Source of the DNA: Deltaproteobacteria bacterium
GTDB lineage: Bacteria > Myxococcota_A > Polyangia > HGW-17
Reading direction: 5' to 3'
Length of the DNA stretch: 39,197 nucleotides
Assembly (NCBI GenBank): GCA_016937155.1
Contig: JAFGWM010000077.1
Span: 1 to 39,197, forward strand
The notes below the pieces were generated by a model, which was given only the letters and a program-made list of their open reading frames with translations, was not told where the DNA came from and did not search any database. The position numbers were made by a program, and so were the translations under genes. This document shows, piece after piece, positions 15,680 through 20,814 of this stretch; positions within the stretch are counted from its first letter, which is position 1, and every line of letters begins with the position of its first letter.

Positions 15680-16375
15680 TCAGTTTTCTCTTCGATCATC
15701 ACCTGTGACTACTCCATCAGCCAGTGTAACCTGTCTGGAAAAAAGTGACGCCATTTGAGTGTTATGAGTAACCACAAACAATGTCATTCCAAGTTTTCCA
15801 TTCAGATCAAAAAGCAGTTCATTAATTTTCTGCCCGGTATTTGAATCCAGATTACCGGTTGGTTCATCAGCAAGCAGTATTGAAGGTTCCATTACAATAG
15901 CCCTCGCAATTGCAACCCTCTGCTGTTCCCCACCACTGAGCTGTCCGGGTCTGTGTGTCAGACGGTGGTCAAGCCCTACTACATCAAGTGCTTTTTTTGC
16001 TTTACTGCGGGCTTTTTCTCTGTCCATCTTTCTGATAAGACATGGAATCATAACATTCTCAACTGCAGTAAATGCCTGAAGCAAATGATGAAACTGGAAA
16101 ACAAATCCTATCTTTTCTGCCCGGTATGCAGCAAGTTCCTTACTTGAGTATTTTGCAATATCACTACCCTCAAAAAAAATATTCCCACCACTTGGAGTAT
16201 CCAAACCTCCAAGCAGGTGCAGCAAAGTACTCTTTCCAGCGCCGCTTGCCCCAAGTACTGCAATACTCTCACCGTGAAGAATATCCAGATCAACAGAATT
16301 CAATATTCTCAGTGTCTTACCACCATGATCAAAGCTTTTTACAAGTTTTTTAACACCAAGAAGAATATTACTCAT
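15680..16375 (-). CDS. lolD: Lipoprotein-releasing ABC transporter ATPase LolD
   Basis: ATPase of the LolCDE/MacB-like family that extracts outer-membrane lipoproteins from the inner membrane. It shows Walker A GASGAGKST (residues 42-50), Q-loop QFHHLL, signature LSGGEQQR (146-153), Walker B ILLADEPTGNLD (166 on) and H-loop VVTHN. At 231 residues it is a stand-alone ATPase. The usual lolC/lolE membrane partner is absent from the window, so the partner must be elsewhere, or another FtsX-like permease could use it. The candidate start of bamA overlaps or abuts its stop, linking lipoprotein and OMP export. Confidence 0.92.
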   Translation of the reverse strand: MSNILLGVKKLVKSFDHGGKTLRILNSVDLDILHGESIAVLGASGAGKSTLLHLLGGLDTPSGGNIFFEGSDIAKYSSKELAAYRAEKIGFVFQFHHLLQAFTAVENVMIPCLIRKMDREKARSKAKKALDVVGLDHRLTHRPGQLSGGEQQRVAIARAIVMEPSILLADEPTGNLDSNTGQKINELLFDLNGKLGMTLFVVTHNTQMASLFSRQVTLADGVVTGDDRREN

Positions 16376-16479: not shown

Positions 16480-17085
16480 TCAATAAAAAACCAGTTTTGA
16501 GTTACCCATATTGAAGTGGAGATCCTTACGGATAACAACCTTGGATTCAGAAGAGACATTATGTACCAAAATTTTTGCATTCTTGCCAATAATATTAATA
16601 ATTTTATCATTATCTCCACATATTATTTCTCCATGGTGTCTGGAAATACCATTTCCTTTCAGTTTCAGGTAACAGTCACTTCCCCTGCCGAAGTAAATCT
16701 GTCCAGTCTGAGGCAGTGTAAAACTATCAATAAGTTCGTCATCATTACTCATCAGACTGCAATATATCAATTCGGGAAATGCTGGCATTTCAATCAGTTC
16801 CACGTAATATTCGTTATCGGATATTTTTAGAACAAAATGACCGGTGAAAACTCTCTGTTCCAAATATTCAACTTTTTCCCCGTTAAAAAAGATATCCTCA
16901 AAAGAAAGATTCTGAAAAAACCTGTGACGATACCCCAGAAAAACTCTAAAAATATCACCGATTGATTTTATATGTGGAATAATAAACCTACGATTTTTTC
17001 CGGAAATGAGCTCGTTTCCATGAAAAAACCATATAACACCTGATCTGCATTCATTTCTTAAAAGCTCAATTTTCAGTCCTCTCAT
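16480..17085 (-). CDS. FHA-domain protein
   Basis: 201 residues, no signal peptide or TM segment, so cytosolic. The C-terminal third is a forkhead-associated domain: GQIYFGRGSDCYLKLKGNGISRHHGEI carries the Gly-Arg and Ser-Arg-His-His phosphothreonine-binding residues, followed by the strand pattern up to LVFY at the C-terminus. The N-terminal half contains a second FHA-like strand order (FIIPHIKSIGDIF...FFNGEKVEYLE..FTGHFVLKI) without the key residues, suggesting a degenerate second copy. Its ATG overlaps the upstream stop as ATGA. A phosphothreonine partner is expected, but no Ser/Thr kinase is in the window. Confidence 0.85.
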   Translation of the reverse strand: MRGLKIELLRNECRSGVIWFFHGNELISGKNRRFIIPHIKSIGDIFRVFLGYRHRFFQNLSFEDIFFNGEKVEYLEQRVFTGHFVLKISDNEYYVELIEMPAFPELIYCSLMSNDDELIDSFTLPQTGQIYFGRGSDCYLKLKGNGISRHHGEIICGDNDKIINIIGKNAKILVHNVSSESKVVIRKDLHFNMGNSKLVFY

Positions 17086-18083
17086 TTTTTCAATGCGGGC
17101 CCCGTAAACCCTTCAGTACCATCACATTCGGCAATACCCATTGGTGTAATAACTTCATTTTGATGAACCCCCTCAACTGAAGTATTATCCCATACCACTG
17201 ATGAATTAATGACCACCTCGTCTCCATAACTGATATTTTTTCCAGTAACAACGTTACCTGTACATTTCACATCCTGAGGTATTTTCTCCTCTGAAAATAT
17301 CCTTCCTGATTCAGTCTCAGTAATCATGCCGGTATCGATATTATGACGTTTCAAAATGGAGATCCTTCTTTTATCAAGAAGATTAAAATTCCCCTGAAGA
17401 TATCGTGAGGGAGTGGAATGTTCAAACCAGTAATCACTGTCAGACATTATAAATCCACCAATTGGAATATTTTTTCTGAAGTATTTAAGGTAGCCATCTC
17501 TTATAAGACAAGCCGGTCCTTCAGGGAAATCTTTGAAAAACTCTTTTTCGATAATCTGGATTCCAGTGAACATATACGGAGCAGATCCGGTTTCTTCACC
17601 ATTTGAATTTTTTCCAAGAATTGAAGAAATCCGTCCTTCATTACATCCTACACTACCCCACTTTGATGCATCAGGATCCTTTCTAAGCACCATCGTGGCA
17701 ATATTTCCACTTTCTTTATGCTGCCTAAGCAGAGAGTTGAAATCAAAATCAGTAATTATTTTTCCATTCAGAACAACAAATGGCCCGTCCCCAAGAAGTG
17801 GTAACGCGAAATTTACACCTCCACCGGTTCCCAGAACCTGCCCTGATTCTCTTGACCAGTTTATCCTGACATCCATACCACTTCCATTTCCAAGCATATC
17901 AGGCAGCATATCACCCAGATGATGACTGTTTATAACAAATTCCGAAATCCCTTCACTTTTCAAAAAATCAATAACGTATTTTATTATAGGTTTTCCTAAA
18001 ACCTTTAAGGCTCCCTTGGGGAGCTGTTTACCAAGTATACCAAGCCTTGTTCCATACCCCGCTGCGAGAATCATCGCTTTCAT
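17082..18083 (-). CDS. Sugar-phosphate nucleotidyltransferase homologue, metal ligands substituted
   Basis: Rossmann-type nucleotidyltransferase (MurU/GlmU/RmlA-like) with a short C-terminal left-handed beta-helix. The N-terminal signature is AAGYGTRLGILGKQLPKGALKV (residues 7-28) and GTGGG is at 85-89. The normally invariant Mg2+-binding Asp of the NGD motif is Lys108 (VLNGKIIT), and the second metal site, usually W-x-D-x-GTP, reads YWFEHSTP (Glu221, His222). Residues about 265-305 form hexapeptide-like repeats. It starts one base after the upstream stop with GGGAG. Either a pseudoenzyme with sensing or scaffold duties or altered chemistry; substrate unknown. Confidence 0.85.
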   Translation of the reverse strand: MKAMILAAGYGTRLGILGKQLPKGALKVLGKPIIKYVIDFLKSEGISEFVINSHHLGDMLPDMLGNGSGMDVRINWSRESGQVLGTGGGVNFALPLLGDGPFVVLNGKIITDFDFNSLLRQHKESGNIATMVLRKDPDASKWGSVGCNEGRISSILGKNSNGEETGSAPYMFTGIQIIEKEFFKDFPEGPACLIRDGYLKYFRKNIPIGGFIMSDSDYWFEHSTPSRYLQGNFNLLDKRRISILKRHNIDTGMITETESGRIFSEEKIPQDVKCTGNVVTGKNISYGDEVVINSSVVWDNTSVEGVHQNEVITPMGIAECDGTEGFTGPALKK

Positions 18084-18084
18084 C

Positions 18085-19803
18085 TTACATCTCCCACTTG
18101 ACGTGAATCATTAACCAGATTGTTGCCACAATTACGAAACCCACAATAGAAGCAATAATCACCCCAAACGCGATTGCTTTTCGCCGGGCATCAATCTCAT
18201 CACGGGATTTATGCAGATTAGCCCAGAATGACTCGTTCCCGTCAGAATCCGCCATTATAGAGCTCATATCCATTATGGATTTCTGTCTTTGGCGGATGGA
18301 ATAGAATACTGCAAAAAATACAGTAAGAACAAGAATAATACCACTTAAAGCTATTATTGAGAGTATTACCAGTTGCCCACCCCGTTTTGTACGGTTAAGC
18401 TTTGATTCTCGTAATTTTCTTGTATCCTTCAGAAGTTTTACCTCATAATGATACCGATCAAGAAGTCCCCCAAAAAAATGAATATCATCCTGAACACTAT
18501 ATCCACTTTTCCAGACAAGACCATTTTCTGAAATATATCTGAGATAATCAGATGTGGGATCATCCATCTGTTTAATTTTAAGAGCCTCAACTACAGCTTC
18601 ATTGACGATTTTGGGATCGTTCAGATAGGGGTGTACCCAAAAAGTTGTGTTAGCCATTGAATTATGAAGGGGCAGATATGACAAACTGGACTGTGCTTTG
18701 TACATTCCATAAAGACCGCCAGTATCAATTGTCGCCATACCTTCATAATCTGCCAGAGGTACTGTATAACCTTTAACCCACTGGGATTTACTGTAAATAT
18801 CAAGCCAGAATGGACCATTACCAAGACCTGTAACCGGAAAACTGATGTTCTTTTCAGGAGGTACAATTCGTGAAAAATATCCGATGAAAACATCATCCTC
18901 AAGACCACCAATATCAAATTCTGTTTGGGGACCGGTTCTAACAGAATCTCCCTCTTTTATTGAATAATTAATTTTAAAGGATACACCACTGGTCATGGGG
19001 TAAACAGTAAGTGAATCCAACCCAAGACTGTCGGTGGTCAACTTGAACGGAATCTTTTCTCCATCCTTTATTTCCACCATACATTTTGGGAGTTCCTTTG
19101 GTACAAGATAAGGAATGCAATCAACATTTTTAGGAATTCTTATAGTTCCGCTTTTTACCTCAAGTGATATTTCAGCTCTTAATGGCTTACCAGATTTTTC
19201 ATGAGCTTTGACATAGAGAATATCACGAATTCTGTTTCGGAATCCCCTTCCATTATATGGATGAAGACTGATTACATTTCCAAGAGAATCTACTTTTGAG
19301 GATGAAGAACTGAGTTGAGTGTAATTTGTATCCTGCTCACCGCCTTCTTCTTCCAGAATTCTGGGAAGTTCAGGTGGATTTGAACTTAATTTTATAATCG
19401 ACTTCCAGTTTTCAGTTCCAGTTTCTGTGGTTATGTTCCAGTTTATTTTATAGTCGCCCTCTTTTAGGGGGGGAAAAAGAACATTCAGATTAACTGCTTT
19501 TTCACCAGGTTCCATAGTAGCTTTACCTAGCATAACTTTGTTATCATCAACATCAATGGATAACTCAACCTGTAGTTTTTCAACAGGTTTTGATAGCTTA
19601 CCTTTTCGGGCAATGATTCTGAATGCACCACTTGATCCGGCTTTGAAAGAGTCATTCCCATAAATTCTTACCCAACCGGAAATATTCATTCTTGAAATAA
19701 AAATACCAAGACTCATGAGGAAAGTTGCTGCAACCGGTAATCCGATAAGAAGAATTTTCTTCATGGGAGATGCCTTGAACGATATGGAAGTATTGTCTTT
19801 CAT
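18085..19803 (-). CDS. Three-TM protein with large beta-rich extracytoplasmic region
   Basis: No family recognised. From ATG 19803 (572 residues) there is a TM helix at about residues 16-38 and an extracytoplasmic region of roughly 440 residues. The latter has at least three Ig/MG2-like beta-sandwich stretches (for example FKAGSSGAFRIIARKGK, DILYVKAHEKSGKPLRAEISLEVK). A second TM (about 483-507), a cytosolic loop of about 45 charged residues (RQRQKSIMDMSSIM...) and a final TM (about 545-567) complete it. The start is set by ATGA overlap with the preceding lipoprotein gene plus GGGAG. Its position before the nucleotidyltransferase and FHA genes suggests an envelope receptor or anchor linked to cytosolic partners. 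Confidence 0.82.
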   Translation of the reverse strand: MKDNTSISFKASPMKKILLIGLPVAATFLMSLGIFISRMNISGWVRIYGNDSFKAGSSGAFRIIARKGKLSKPVEKLQVELSIDVDDNKVMLGKATMEPGEKAVNLNVLFPPLKEGDYKINWNITTETGTENWKSIIKLSSNPPELPRILEEEGGEQDTNYTQLSSSSSKVDSLGNVISLHPYNGRGFRNRIRDILYVKAHEKSGKPLRAEISLEVKSGTIRIPKNVDCIPYLVPKELPKCMVEIKDGEKIPFKLTTDSLGLDSLTVYPMTSGVSFKINYSIKEGDSVRTGPQTEFDIGGLEDDVFIGYFSRIVPPEKNISFPVTGLGNGPFWLDIYSKSQWVKGYTVPLADYEGMATIDTGGLYGMYKAQSSLSYLPLHNSMANTTFWVHPYLNDPKIVNEAVVEALKIKQMDDPTSDYLRYISENGLVWKSGYSVQDDIHFFGGLLDRYHYEVKLLKDTRKLRESKLNRTKRGGQLVILSIIALSGIILVLTVFFAVFYSIRQRQKSIMDMSSIMADSDGNESFWANLHKSRDEIDARRKAIAFGVIIASIVGFVIVATIWLMIHVKWEM

Positions 19804-20108
19804 TTTGACTCCCTTTTGCCTTTTTTGGCAGTCCTGAAAAAGCATCTTACGAACGCGTCACAGTCTTTTATCCTGAGACAACTGTTAATTCTCCGGGCAT
19901 CACCGAAATCACCTTTTCTTGACCTGCATGGTTCAATAACCACCTCATCCAGAAGGTGAGAATAGTTACCAACGGATTTTTTTTCCGTGGAATAAACTGC
20001 ATCAAAGTCTGCCTTACACCCCAGCATTTTTTCCTTCAATTTGTCACAATCAACAGTTTTAGAACATCCTGAAACCAATAACAGTATTGTAATTACAGGT
20101 TTTTTCAT
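19800..20108 (-). CDS. Cys-scaffold lipoprotein, paralogue A
   Basis: 102-residue lipoprotein (lipobox VSGC, Cys15) with Cys at 15, 21, 31, 61, 77, 83 and 89. The spacings C-x5-C-x9-C and C-x15-C-x5-C-x5-C are identical to those of the gene just upstream, and the words TVDCDKLKEK and RRINSCL recur there as KVDCEKLKQR and KNINKCL. The two are therefore tandem paralogues. Six Cys beyond the lipid-bearing one allow three disulfides. No Shine-Dalgarno is evident, so it may depend on translation of the upstream copy 9 bases away. Function unknown. Confidence 0.82.
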   Translation of the reverse strand: MKKPVITILLLVSGCSKTVDCDKLKEKMLGCKADFDAVYSTEKKSVGNYSHLLDEVVIEPCRSRKGDFGDARRINSCLRIKDCDAFVRCFFRTAKKGKRESK

Positions 20109-20117
20109 CAGTAAATT

Positions 20118-20459
20118 TTATTTCAGAACAGTTTTAAGGCAGGCATGAACATCCACACAACTGGATGCCTCGAGGCATTTATTGATATTTTTCGCCCTGC
20201 TGTCTCTTCCTGAAGAAGCACTGCATTTTTCAACGAAAAAGGAGTCAATTGCTTCAGCATAGGAAGCAGCAGTTGATTTTTTATCGGCTGCAAACTCTTT
20301 CTTCTCAAGTGGTCTTCCGGATGGATTAACCTTACTGTAATTATCCATCATACAACTTGTAAGTCTCTGTTTGAGTTTCTCACAATCAACTTTTTCCTTG
20401 CATGCACTACCACCCATCAGGGTTATACCAAGAATGCAACAGACAACAGTTCTTCCCAT
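20118..20459 (-). CDS. Cys-scaffold lipoprotein, paralogue B
   Basis: 113-residue lipoprotein from ATG 20459, chosen because AAGGA lies 10 bases upstream and the signal peptide then begins normally (MGRTVV); the frame extends to 20489. Lipobox GSAC gives Cys20. Cys at 20, 26, 36, 79, 95, 101 and 107 match the spacing of paralogue A, with a longer Lys/Ser-rich middle (residues 45-70). First gene of a tightly packed five-gene unit ending with the FHA protein. Probably an oxidised, disulfide-locked periplasmic domain; no function can be assigned. Confidence 0.82.
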   Translation of the reverse strand: MGRTVVCCILGITLMGGSACKEKVDCEKLKQRLTSCMMDNYSKVNPSGRPLEKKEFAADKKSTAASYAEAIDSFFVEKCSASSGRDSRAKNINKCLEASSCVDVHACLKTVLK

Positions 20460-20556: not shown

Positions 20557-20814
20557 TTAGTAACATACACAGTCATCACCACTGGCGAAATACTCGCATG
20601 TACCGCCAACATAACCAAGATCATAGCAGTCGAGATCACAGTCAGTGATATAATCCCAGTCACAGTCATTTGTACAGCCTTCACCAAGGTCAATGGCATT
20701 AAGACATGTTGGAAGATCACCGTACATACATTCGCATGAGTCTTCAACTACACAGGAGGAAGCTCCAAAAGCCAGAAATACGCTGATAAAAGCAATAGAC
20801 AACAGTTTTTTCAT
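20557..20814 (-). CDS. Acidic 11-Cys mini-lipoprotein
   Basis: 85-residue product with lipoprotein signal peptide (lipobox ASSC, Cys21). The mature 65 residues contain ten further Cys (27, 29, 37, 47, 51, 59, 63, 73, 82, 84) and about a dozen Asp/Glu but no Lys or Arg, an extreme composition. Five disulfides or a metal-binding role are possible. A strong AAAGGAG site 7 bases before the ATG and an extended -10 promoter directly upstream support a genuine gene. No known family recognised; the CxC pairs and DCDxDC stretch recall small disulfide-rich or EF-hand-like acidic loops, but this is only resemblance. Confidence 0.8.
   Translation of the reverse strand: MKKLLSIAFISVFLAFGASSCVVEDSCECMYGDLPTCLNAIDLGEGCTNDCDWDYITDCDLDCYDLGYVGGTCEYFASGDDCVCY

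Follow-up and report, generated by a model that had tools for sequence, protein, structure and literature searches.

A conserved Myxococcota operon encoding a predicted membrane-anchored mini-macroglobulin and a MurU-like nucleotidyltransferase homologue with an altered site: a possible trans-envelope control system

The window analysed here, a stretch of 39,197 nucleotides that is contig C41 of a 4.1-Mb Myxococcota MAG, carries an operon for two Cys-braced lipoproteins (LipB and LipA), a predicted membrane-anchored mini-macroglobulin (the ectodomain protein), a MurU-like nucleotidyltransferase homologue and an FHA protein. The best explanation that we can offer, held with somewhat less than even confidence, is that the products of the operon form an inner-membrane complex for envelope surveillance, linking the state of the cell wall or periplasm to sugar-nucleotide status. 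A fuller claim, that it represents a trans-envelope control system undescribed before, in which peptidoglycan or periplasm is read by an anchored macroglobulin-fold protein coupled to a nucleotide-sugar-sensing, class-wide NGK/EHST MurU-like pseudo-nucleotidyltransferase, is put forward as a tentative possibility. All parts belong to known superfamilies. A literature search, largely outside subscription journals, found no description of the combination, of the membrane-anchored mini-macroglobulin family or of the NGK clade of nucleotidyltransferases, nor any work on such an operon or on M23 peptidases with macroglobulin.

The five open reading frames, all on the minus strand, were read from the window and lie where the earlier note had placed them (Table 1). 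The four junctions, also read directly from the sequence, agree with it as well: 9 bases separate LipB from LipA, LipA overlaps the ectodomain gene by ATGA, a single base separates the latter from the nucleotidyltransferase gene, and a second ATGA overlap leads into the FHA gene. The ectodomain frame has a further upstream ATG at 19845, giving a mechanical ORF of 586 aa, and an ATG at 19803 that overlaps the LipA stop. The natural start is the ATGA at 19803, which yields 572 residues; ectodomain residue numbers throughout are those of the 586-aa ORF. A promoter/terminator scan of the operon returned nothing in excess of shuffles.

Table 1. Positions in the window of the operon genes and of two nucleotidyltransferase motifs.
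Feature	Position	Strand	Description
LipB	20118..20459	-	113-aa lipoprotein; lipobox Cys20 and six invariant Cys; Lys at +2
LipA	19800..20108	-	102 aa; LipB paralogue sharing its Cys pattern; LipA/LipB cross-match in relatives
Ectodomain protein	18085..19803	-	572 aa from ATGA start; predicted membrane-anchored mini-macroglobulin (fold and HMM alignment)
Nucleotidyltransferase homologue	17082..18083	-	MurU/GMPPB-like; NGK and EHST; left-handed-helix-like C-terminal tail
NGK motif of nucleotidyltransferase	17760..17768	-	codons 106-108, counted from ORF start 18083
EHST motif of nucleotidyltransferase	17412..17423	-	codons 221-224, counted from ORF start 18083
FHA protein	16480..17085	-	201 aa; FHA domain C-terminal; GR and SRxH retained

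Two flanking genes were considered separately. A putative 85-aa Cys-rich lipoprotein (11 Cys) is encoded at 20557-20814, 97 bases upstream of LipB; it was rejected as an operon member, as it was not found upstream of LipB in genomes G001, G003 and G005. On the other side, positions 15680-16375 encode lolD without an adjoining lolC/E, and lolCE-type permeases, whose matches score below the family cut-off, are encoded on other contigs of the source genome (C48, C29). The ectodomain protein was rejected as a LolC/E replacement on the basis of these genes elsewhere and of having no FtsX-type Pfam match.

The nucleotidyltransferase homologue matches PF00483 (3e-21), and the NTP_transferase fold with its GxGxR and PK signature is present. 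Its best NCBIfam match is MurU, at 144.5 bits against an equivalog cut-off of 250, and its closest solved relatives by sequence are MurU (8hhd, recorded as N-acetylmuramate alpha-1-phosphate uridylyltransferase; 4y7t) and GMPPB-like enzymes. In contrast to MurU, the window protein is longer, has an LbH-like tail and carries NGK in place of NGD. Lys108 of this motif aligns with the catalytic/metal Asp of NGD. Aligned Asp residues are described as catalytically critical in VTC1 (Asp111 and Asp219), and the Lys108 site corresponds to Asp111 (PMC9168903).

An alignment of 54 homologues demonstrated that K108 occurs together with H222, S223 and E/D221 in 43/43 members of one clade, while the remaining 11/11 carry D108 and D221 without HS. 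The (E/D)HST of the NGK clade (one member has N for T) replaces the D[ILV]GT of canonical homologues, and the GxGxR, PK and GTGG region is kept. A tree built without the motif columns places the difference on a single change of state (support 84/85); in other classes, the top three matches have the Asp form of the site. The substituted metal ligand described in the earlier note is thus real and conserved. On this alignment the NGK/(E/D)HST site is a coordinated re-tooling, not decay, and random decay as the cause of metal-ligand loss is ruled out because the change is coordinated, of single origin and conserved. The re-tooled site is probably non-catalytic.

GMPPA offers a comparison. This paralogue, itself non-catalytic, binds the sugar nucleotide and acts as an inhibitor of its active counterpart (PMC11228364), and it likewise joins a nucleotidyltransferase and LbH-like architecture to lost catalysis (PMC11228364, PMC9168903). 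Judged by sequence, the window protein has also lost the catalytic residues and kept those that bind nucleotide. Unlike GMPPA, it is bacterial, has no evident active partner and shares an operon with a membrane protein. A search of the source genome for a close active (NGD) paralogue gave nothing nearer than a 30%-identical NGD homologue, and a GMPPA/GMPPB-type pair is therefore not evident. No ectodomain gene was found near the NGK nucleotidyltransferases of families f5-f7, f9, f12, f13, f15, f18, f21, f23 and f24; since most NGK families lack such a neighbour, the nucleotidyltransferase has a role without a macroglobulin partner. In ten families (f2, f5, f9, f12, f13, f15, f18, f21, f23 and f24; loci L104-L110, L113, L114 and L062) the NGK gene has a PP2C gene (MSTSFPLDG...-type) nearby or in convergent orientation, which may point to an older connection with Ser/Thr phosphorylation.

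Were the NGK nucleotidyltransferase instead an enzyme that has changed its chemistry or metal use but stays active, making a particular activated sugar that the other members export, attach or control, then the retained GxGxR, PK and GTGG region, the acidic E/D221 at the second ligand site and the coordinated, conserved character of the site changes would be accounted for. The UDP-sugar dehydrogenase gene and the genes judged epimerase-like by eye among neighbours in other families, and malQ or alpha-amylase 3' of the nucleotidyltransferase in genus g4 and family f3, also favour such an enzyme. However, Lys cannot be a Mg2+ ligand, and the operon contains no glycosyltransferase or flippase gene. 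The aligned Asp is, in addition, catalytically critical in homologues (PMC9168903). We consider an enzyme of this kind unlikely, though deserving of weight; that the altered site may still catalyse something is the main uncertainty in our interpretation.

The gene order is conserved beyond chance. LipB-LipA-ectodomain-nucleotidyltransferase-FHA-lolD-bamA-skp is kept in the sister genome, the congener G001, and in G003 and G005, which are species from a different genus, and truncated versions occur in G002, G004, G006, G007 and G009. G002 has the ectodomain-nucleotidyltransferase part on a contig that begins inside a Lip gene and ends after the nucleotidyltransferase. Its ectodomain frame (L005, 350-2044) contains one in-frame TAG just past the second TM helix, either a mutation or an assembly error. 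In a third genus, g4 (G004, G006 and G007), a single Lip gene is followed by the ectodomain and nucleotidyltransferase genes and then by malQ (by eye); FHA is absent, and this version of the operon sits at a different genomic place. G009, of another family (f3), has LipB-LipA-ectodomain at a contig end, with the nucleotidyltransferase starting another contig. Directly 3' of the nucleotidyltransferase in g4 and f3 lie genes for alpha-glucan enzymes, malQ by eye and an alpha-amylase/glucanotransferase by Pfam (L017-L019, L102).

Among the genomes examined, the ectodomain gene is also followed by the nucleotidyltransferase gene in f2, in f4 and in most of those from f10. The pair is thus present in f1, f2, f4 and f10 (f3 is consistent across its contig break), always co-directional and with the ectodomain gene upstream, while lipoprotein genes adjoin it in no families other than f1 and f3, and FHA accompanies it in two genera only. 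Near the pair in f10, Hsp20 and/or DegP-like protease genes were observed (L064, L065, L068, L069). On the basis of this distribution across genera and families, we conclude that the ectodomain-nucleotidyltransferase pair is the ancient core, that the lipoproteins are intermediate, and that FHA is the youngest and most dispensable member.

The earlier note had described a five-gene coupled unit belonging to no familiar module. The tight junctions and the recurring order bear out the coupling, but the five genes are not equally tight in their association. Profile matches do not assign every member to unrelated known systems, and no profile matches the set of five to a known system.

The two Lip proteins of the operon are paralogues. 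In an alignment of Lip sequences, 13/13 carry the lipidated Cys and all six of the other conserved Cys, in keeping with the two Cys-scaffold lipoproteins originally described. The lipobox Cys20 is likewise found in 13/13, with a weak -3 position in LipB (GSAC). In LipB the other invariant residues are Cys 26, 36, 79, 95, 101 and 107, a pattern compatible with three disulfides. A model of LipB is predicted to be all-helical (pLDDT 84). A Lip fold search of the PDB gave no match (best E 2.1) and a sequence search gave nothing of note; this lack of structural relatives is no evidence of a new fold. Lys is present at +2 in 7/8 LipB sequences, as it typically is in the inner-membrane lipoproteins of M. 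xanthus (8/12; PMC3222651). Under this Myxococcus rule for sorting, the predicted location of LipB is the inner rather than the outer membrane, so that it may share the membrane of the ectodomain protein. The layout proposed earlier, with lipoproteins, an inner-membrane ectodomain protein and cytosolic proteins, holds. A third Lip homologue is encoded elsewhere in the source genome, and the family is expanded in f2, with 7-9 copies per genome (G008, G011).

The FHA assignment was upheld by PF00498, which the window protein matches at 24.0 bits (gathering score 20.7); the G001 orthologue falls just under, at 20.3. The phosphothreonine-binding residues GR and SRxH are present in 4/4 orthologues despite overall identities of 24-28%. 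The window protein shares this core with known FHA phosphothreonine-binding proteins, but is very divergent from them, and its N-terminal half has no family match. A PDB sequence search with the FHA protein returned nothing convincing. Binding of FHA to the cytosolic loop of the ectodomain protein is not favoured, because the loop has no Thr in FHA-bearing genomes.

These distributions bear on whether the operon might be an accretion rather than a complex, with only the ectodomain protein and nucleotidyltransferase cooperating and the lipoproteins, FHA and downstream lolD-bamA merely co-transcribed. The many Lip copies in the order that lie away from the ectodomain gene, the missing FHA in g4 and surroundings of the operon that vary between genera would all fit. 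Nevertheless, every junction is tightly coupled, and Lip is kept beside the ectodomain gene across two families whose ectodomain proteins share only 31-48% identity; simple accretion is in our judgment distinctly unlikely.

The ectodomain protein has no family match in Pfam or NCBIfam. An AlphaFold2 model built from 31 relatives (pLDDT 84.8, pTM 0.77) supports the three-TM protein with a large extracytoplasmic part that had been proposed: a TM helix at 27-51, an ectodomain of about 52-474 and a pair of TM helices at the C-terminus, lying within 475-532 and 548-581 and joined by a short cytosolic loop at about 515-548. In the model, three beta-sandwich (MG-type) regions (about 57-154, 190-315 and 319-404) are followed by a helical stretch. 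The top Foldseek match is 4ziq, E. coli A2M (9e-12). In VIA, residues 56-477 align with complement C5, C3, C4, CD109 and A2M at Z 10-16; 75 chains reach Z>=8, the best being complement C5 (Z 15.8, 290 residues, rmsd 6.5).

The ectodomain profile aligns with MG1 of bacterial A2M (57-150 to 58-154, i-E 5e-15) and, more weakly, in a second stretch toward the A2M bait domain (175-354 to 371-542, i-E 9e-4); both values are from a six-protein database, and a genome-wide search gave 1.1e-8 for the same A2M protein. A PDB sequence search with the profile gave nothing significant. The A2M proteins so aligned, of the same class, carry TED, MG2 and A2M domains. In the ectodomain protein, PF07678, PF00207 and PF01835 gave no match at E<=10, whereas these profiles do hit the class's true A2M proteins. 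By model and profile we class the ectodomain protein as a membrane-anchored mini-macroglobulin; being without TED, MG2 and A2M domains, it is related to macroglobulins but is no A2M itself. It has the MG-domain fold of residues 56-477 in common with A2M (E. coli A2M; Type II MagD) and the beta chain of complement C3/C4/C5, but differs from them in its length of about 570 aa, its three TM helices, its lack of a TED/thioester and the nucleotidyltransferase encoded alongside. The family is phylum-wide in Myxococcota, although some of the matches listed are long A2M proteins.

In 9/12 loci from other classes (five families), an M23/Csd3-type endopeptidase is encoded upstream of the ectodomain gene on the same strand, directly adjacent in 7 of them, with gaps ranging from overlap to 101 bases. 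One of the nine peptidases was scanned against Pfam and the remainder are BLAST relatives. This pairing was seen outside the class only, and its bearing on the window operon is therefore indirect; the four M23 genes found in the source genome are on other contigs. In f11, a divergent histidine kinase gene lies beside the ectodomain gene in four loci (L021, L052, L053, L058), and the kinase in L053 is a hybrid with receiver and Hpt domains.

A further comparison is with MagB, the Mag anchor of 589 residues with a predicted TM at 26-48, by which the A2M MagD is kept at the inner membrane (PMC5764988). Pseudomonas aeruginosa MagB resembles the ectodomain protein in its length, its N-terminal TM and its place as the inner-membrane protein of a macroglobulin-related operon, but it has one predicted TM and no nucleotidyltransferase or FHA partners. 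A periplasm-protection (protease-inhibitor) complex like Pseudomonas Mag, with the ectodomain protein as A2M anchor or partner, would suit the macroglobulin fold, the similar size and N-terminal TM of the MagD anchor (PMC5764988), the DegP-like protease genes nearby in some f10 loci and three MG2 proteins encoded elsewhere in the source genome, but it is improbable given that there is no thioester domain, that no full A2M is encoded adjacent and that the nucleotidyltransferase and FHA protein would be left unexplained.

In the envelope-surveillance complex that we prefer, the MG-type domains, seen by fold and profile, would form a periplasmic scaffold or sensor that binds proteins. Here they would be partnered in the periplasm by the two small lipoproteins with their Cys bracing, and in other Myxococcota by the M23 peptidoglycan endopeptidase encoded just upstream, an interaction suggested by adjacency. 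The two C-terminal helices and short cytosolic loop would couple the ectodomain protein to the cytosolic nucleotidyltransferase, which most likely binds a nucleotide sugar of a cell-wall or polysaccharide pathway and would act as a GMPPA-like regulatory subunit, not a producer. In two genera, the FHA domain would make its protein an adaptor tying the complex to Ser/Thr phosphorylation through a presumed ligand. The parts encoded by the operon would be in physical contact, and the net effect would be to match the state of the cell wall or periplasm to sugar-nucleotide status. GMPPA may be taken as a precedent for a regulatory nucleotidyltransferase, and the Mag complex shows that a macroglobulin system can have a small anchor in the membrane. 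We infer, as had the earlier note, a role in envelope-to-cytosol signalling or polysaccharide control, and the M23, PP2C and hybrid histidine kinase neighbours elsewhere point that way.

If this is true, a membrane-anchored macroglobulin fold would serve cell-wall control rather than protease trapping or immunity, and, in much of the class, a bacterial sugar nucleotidyltransferase would have been turned into a conserved protein that is non-catalytic or altered in its chemistry.
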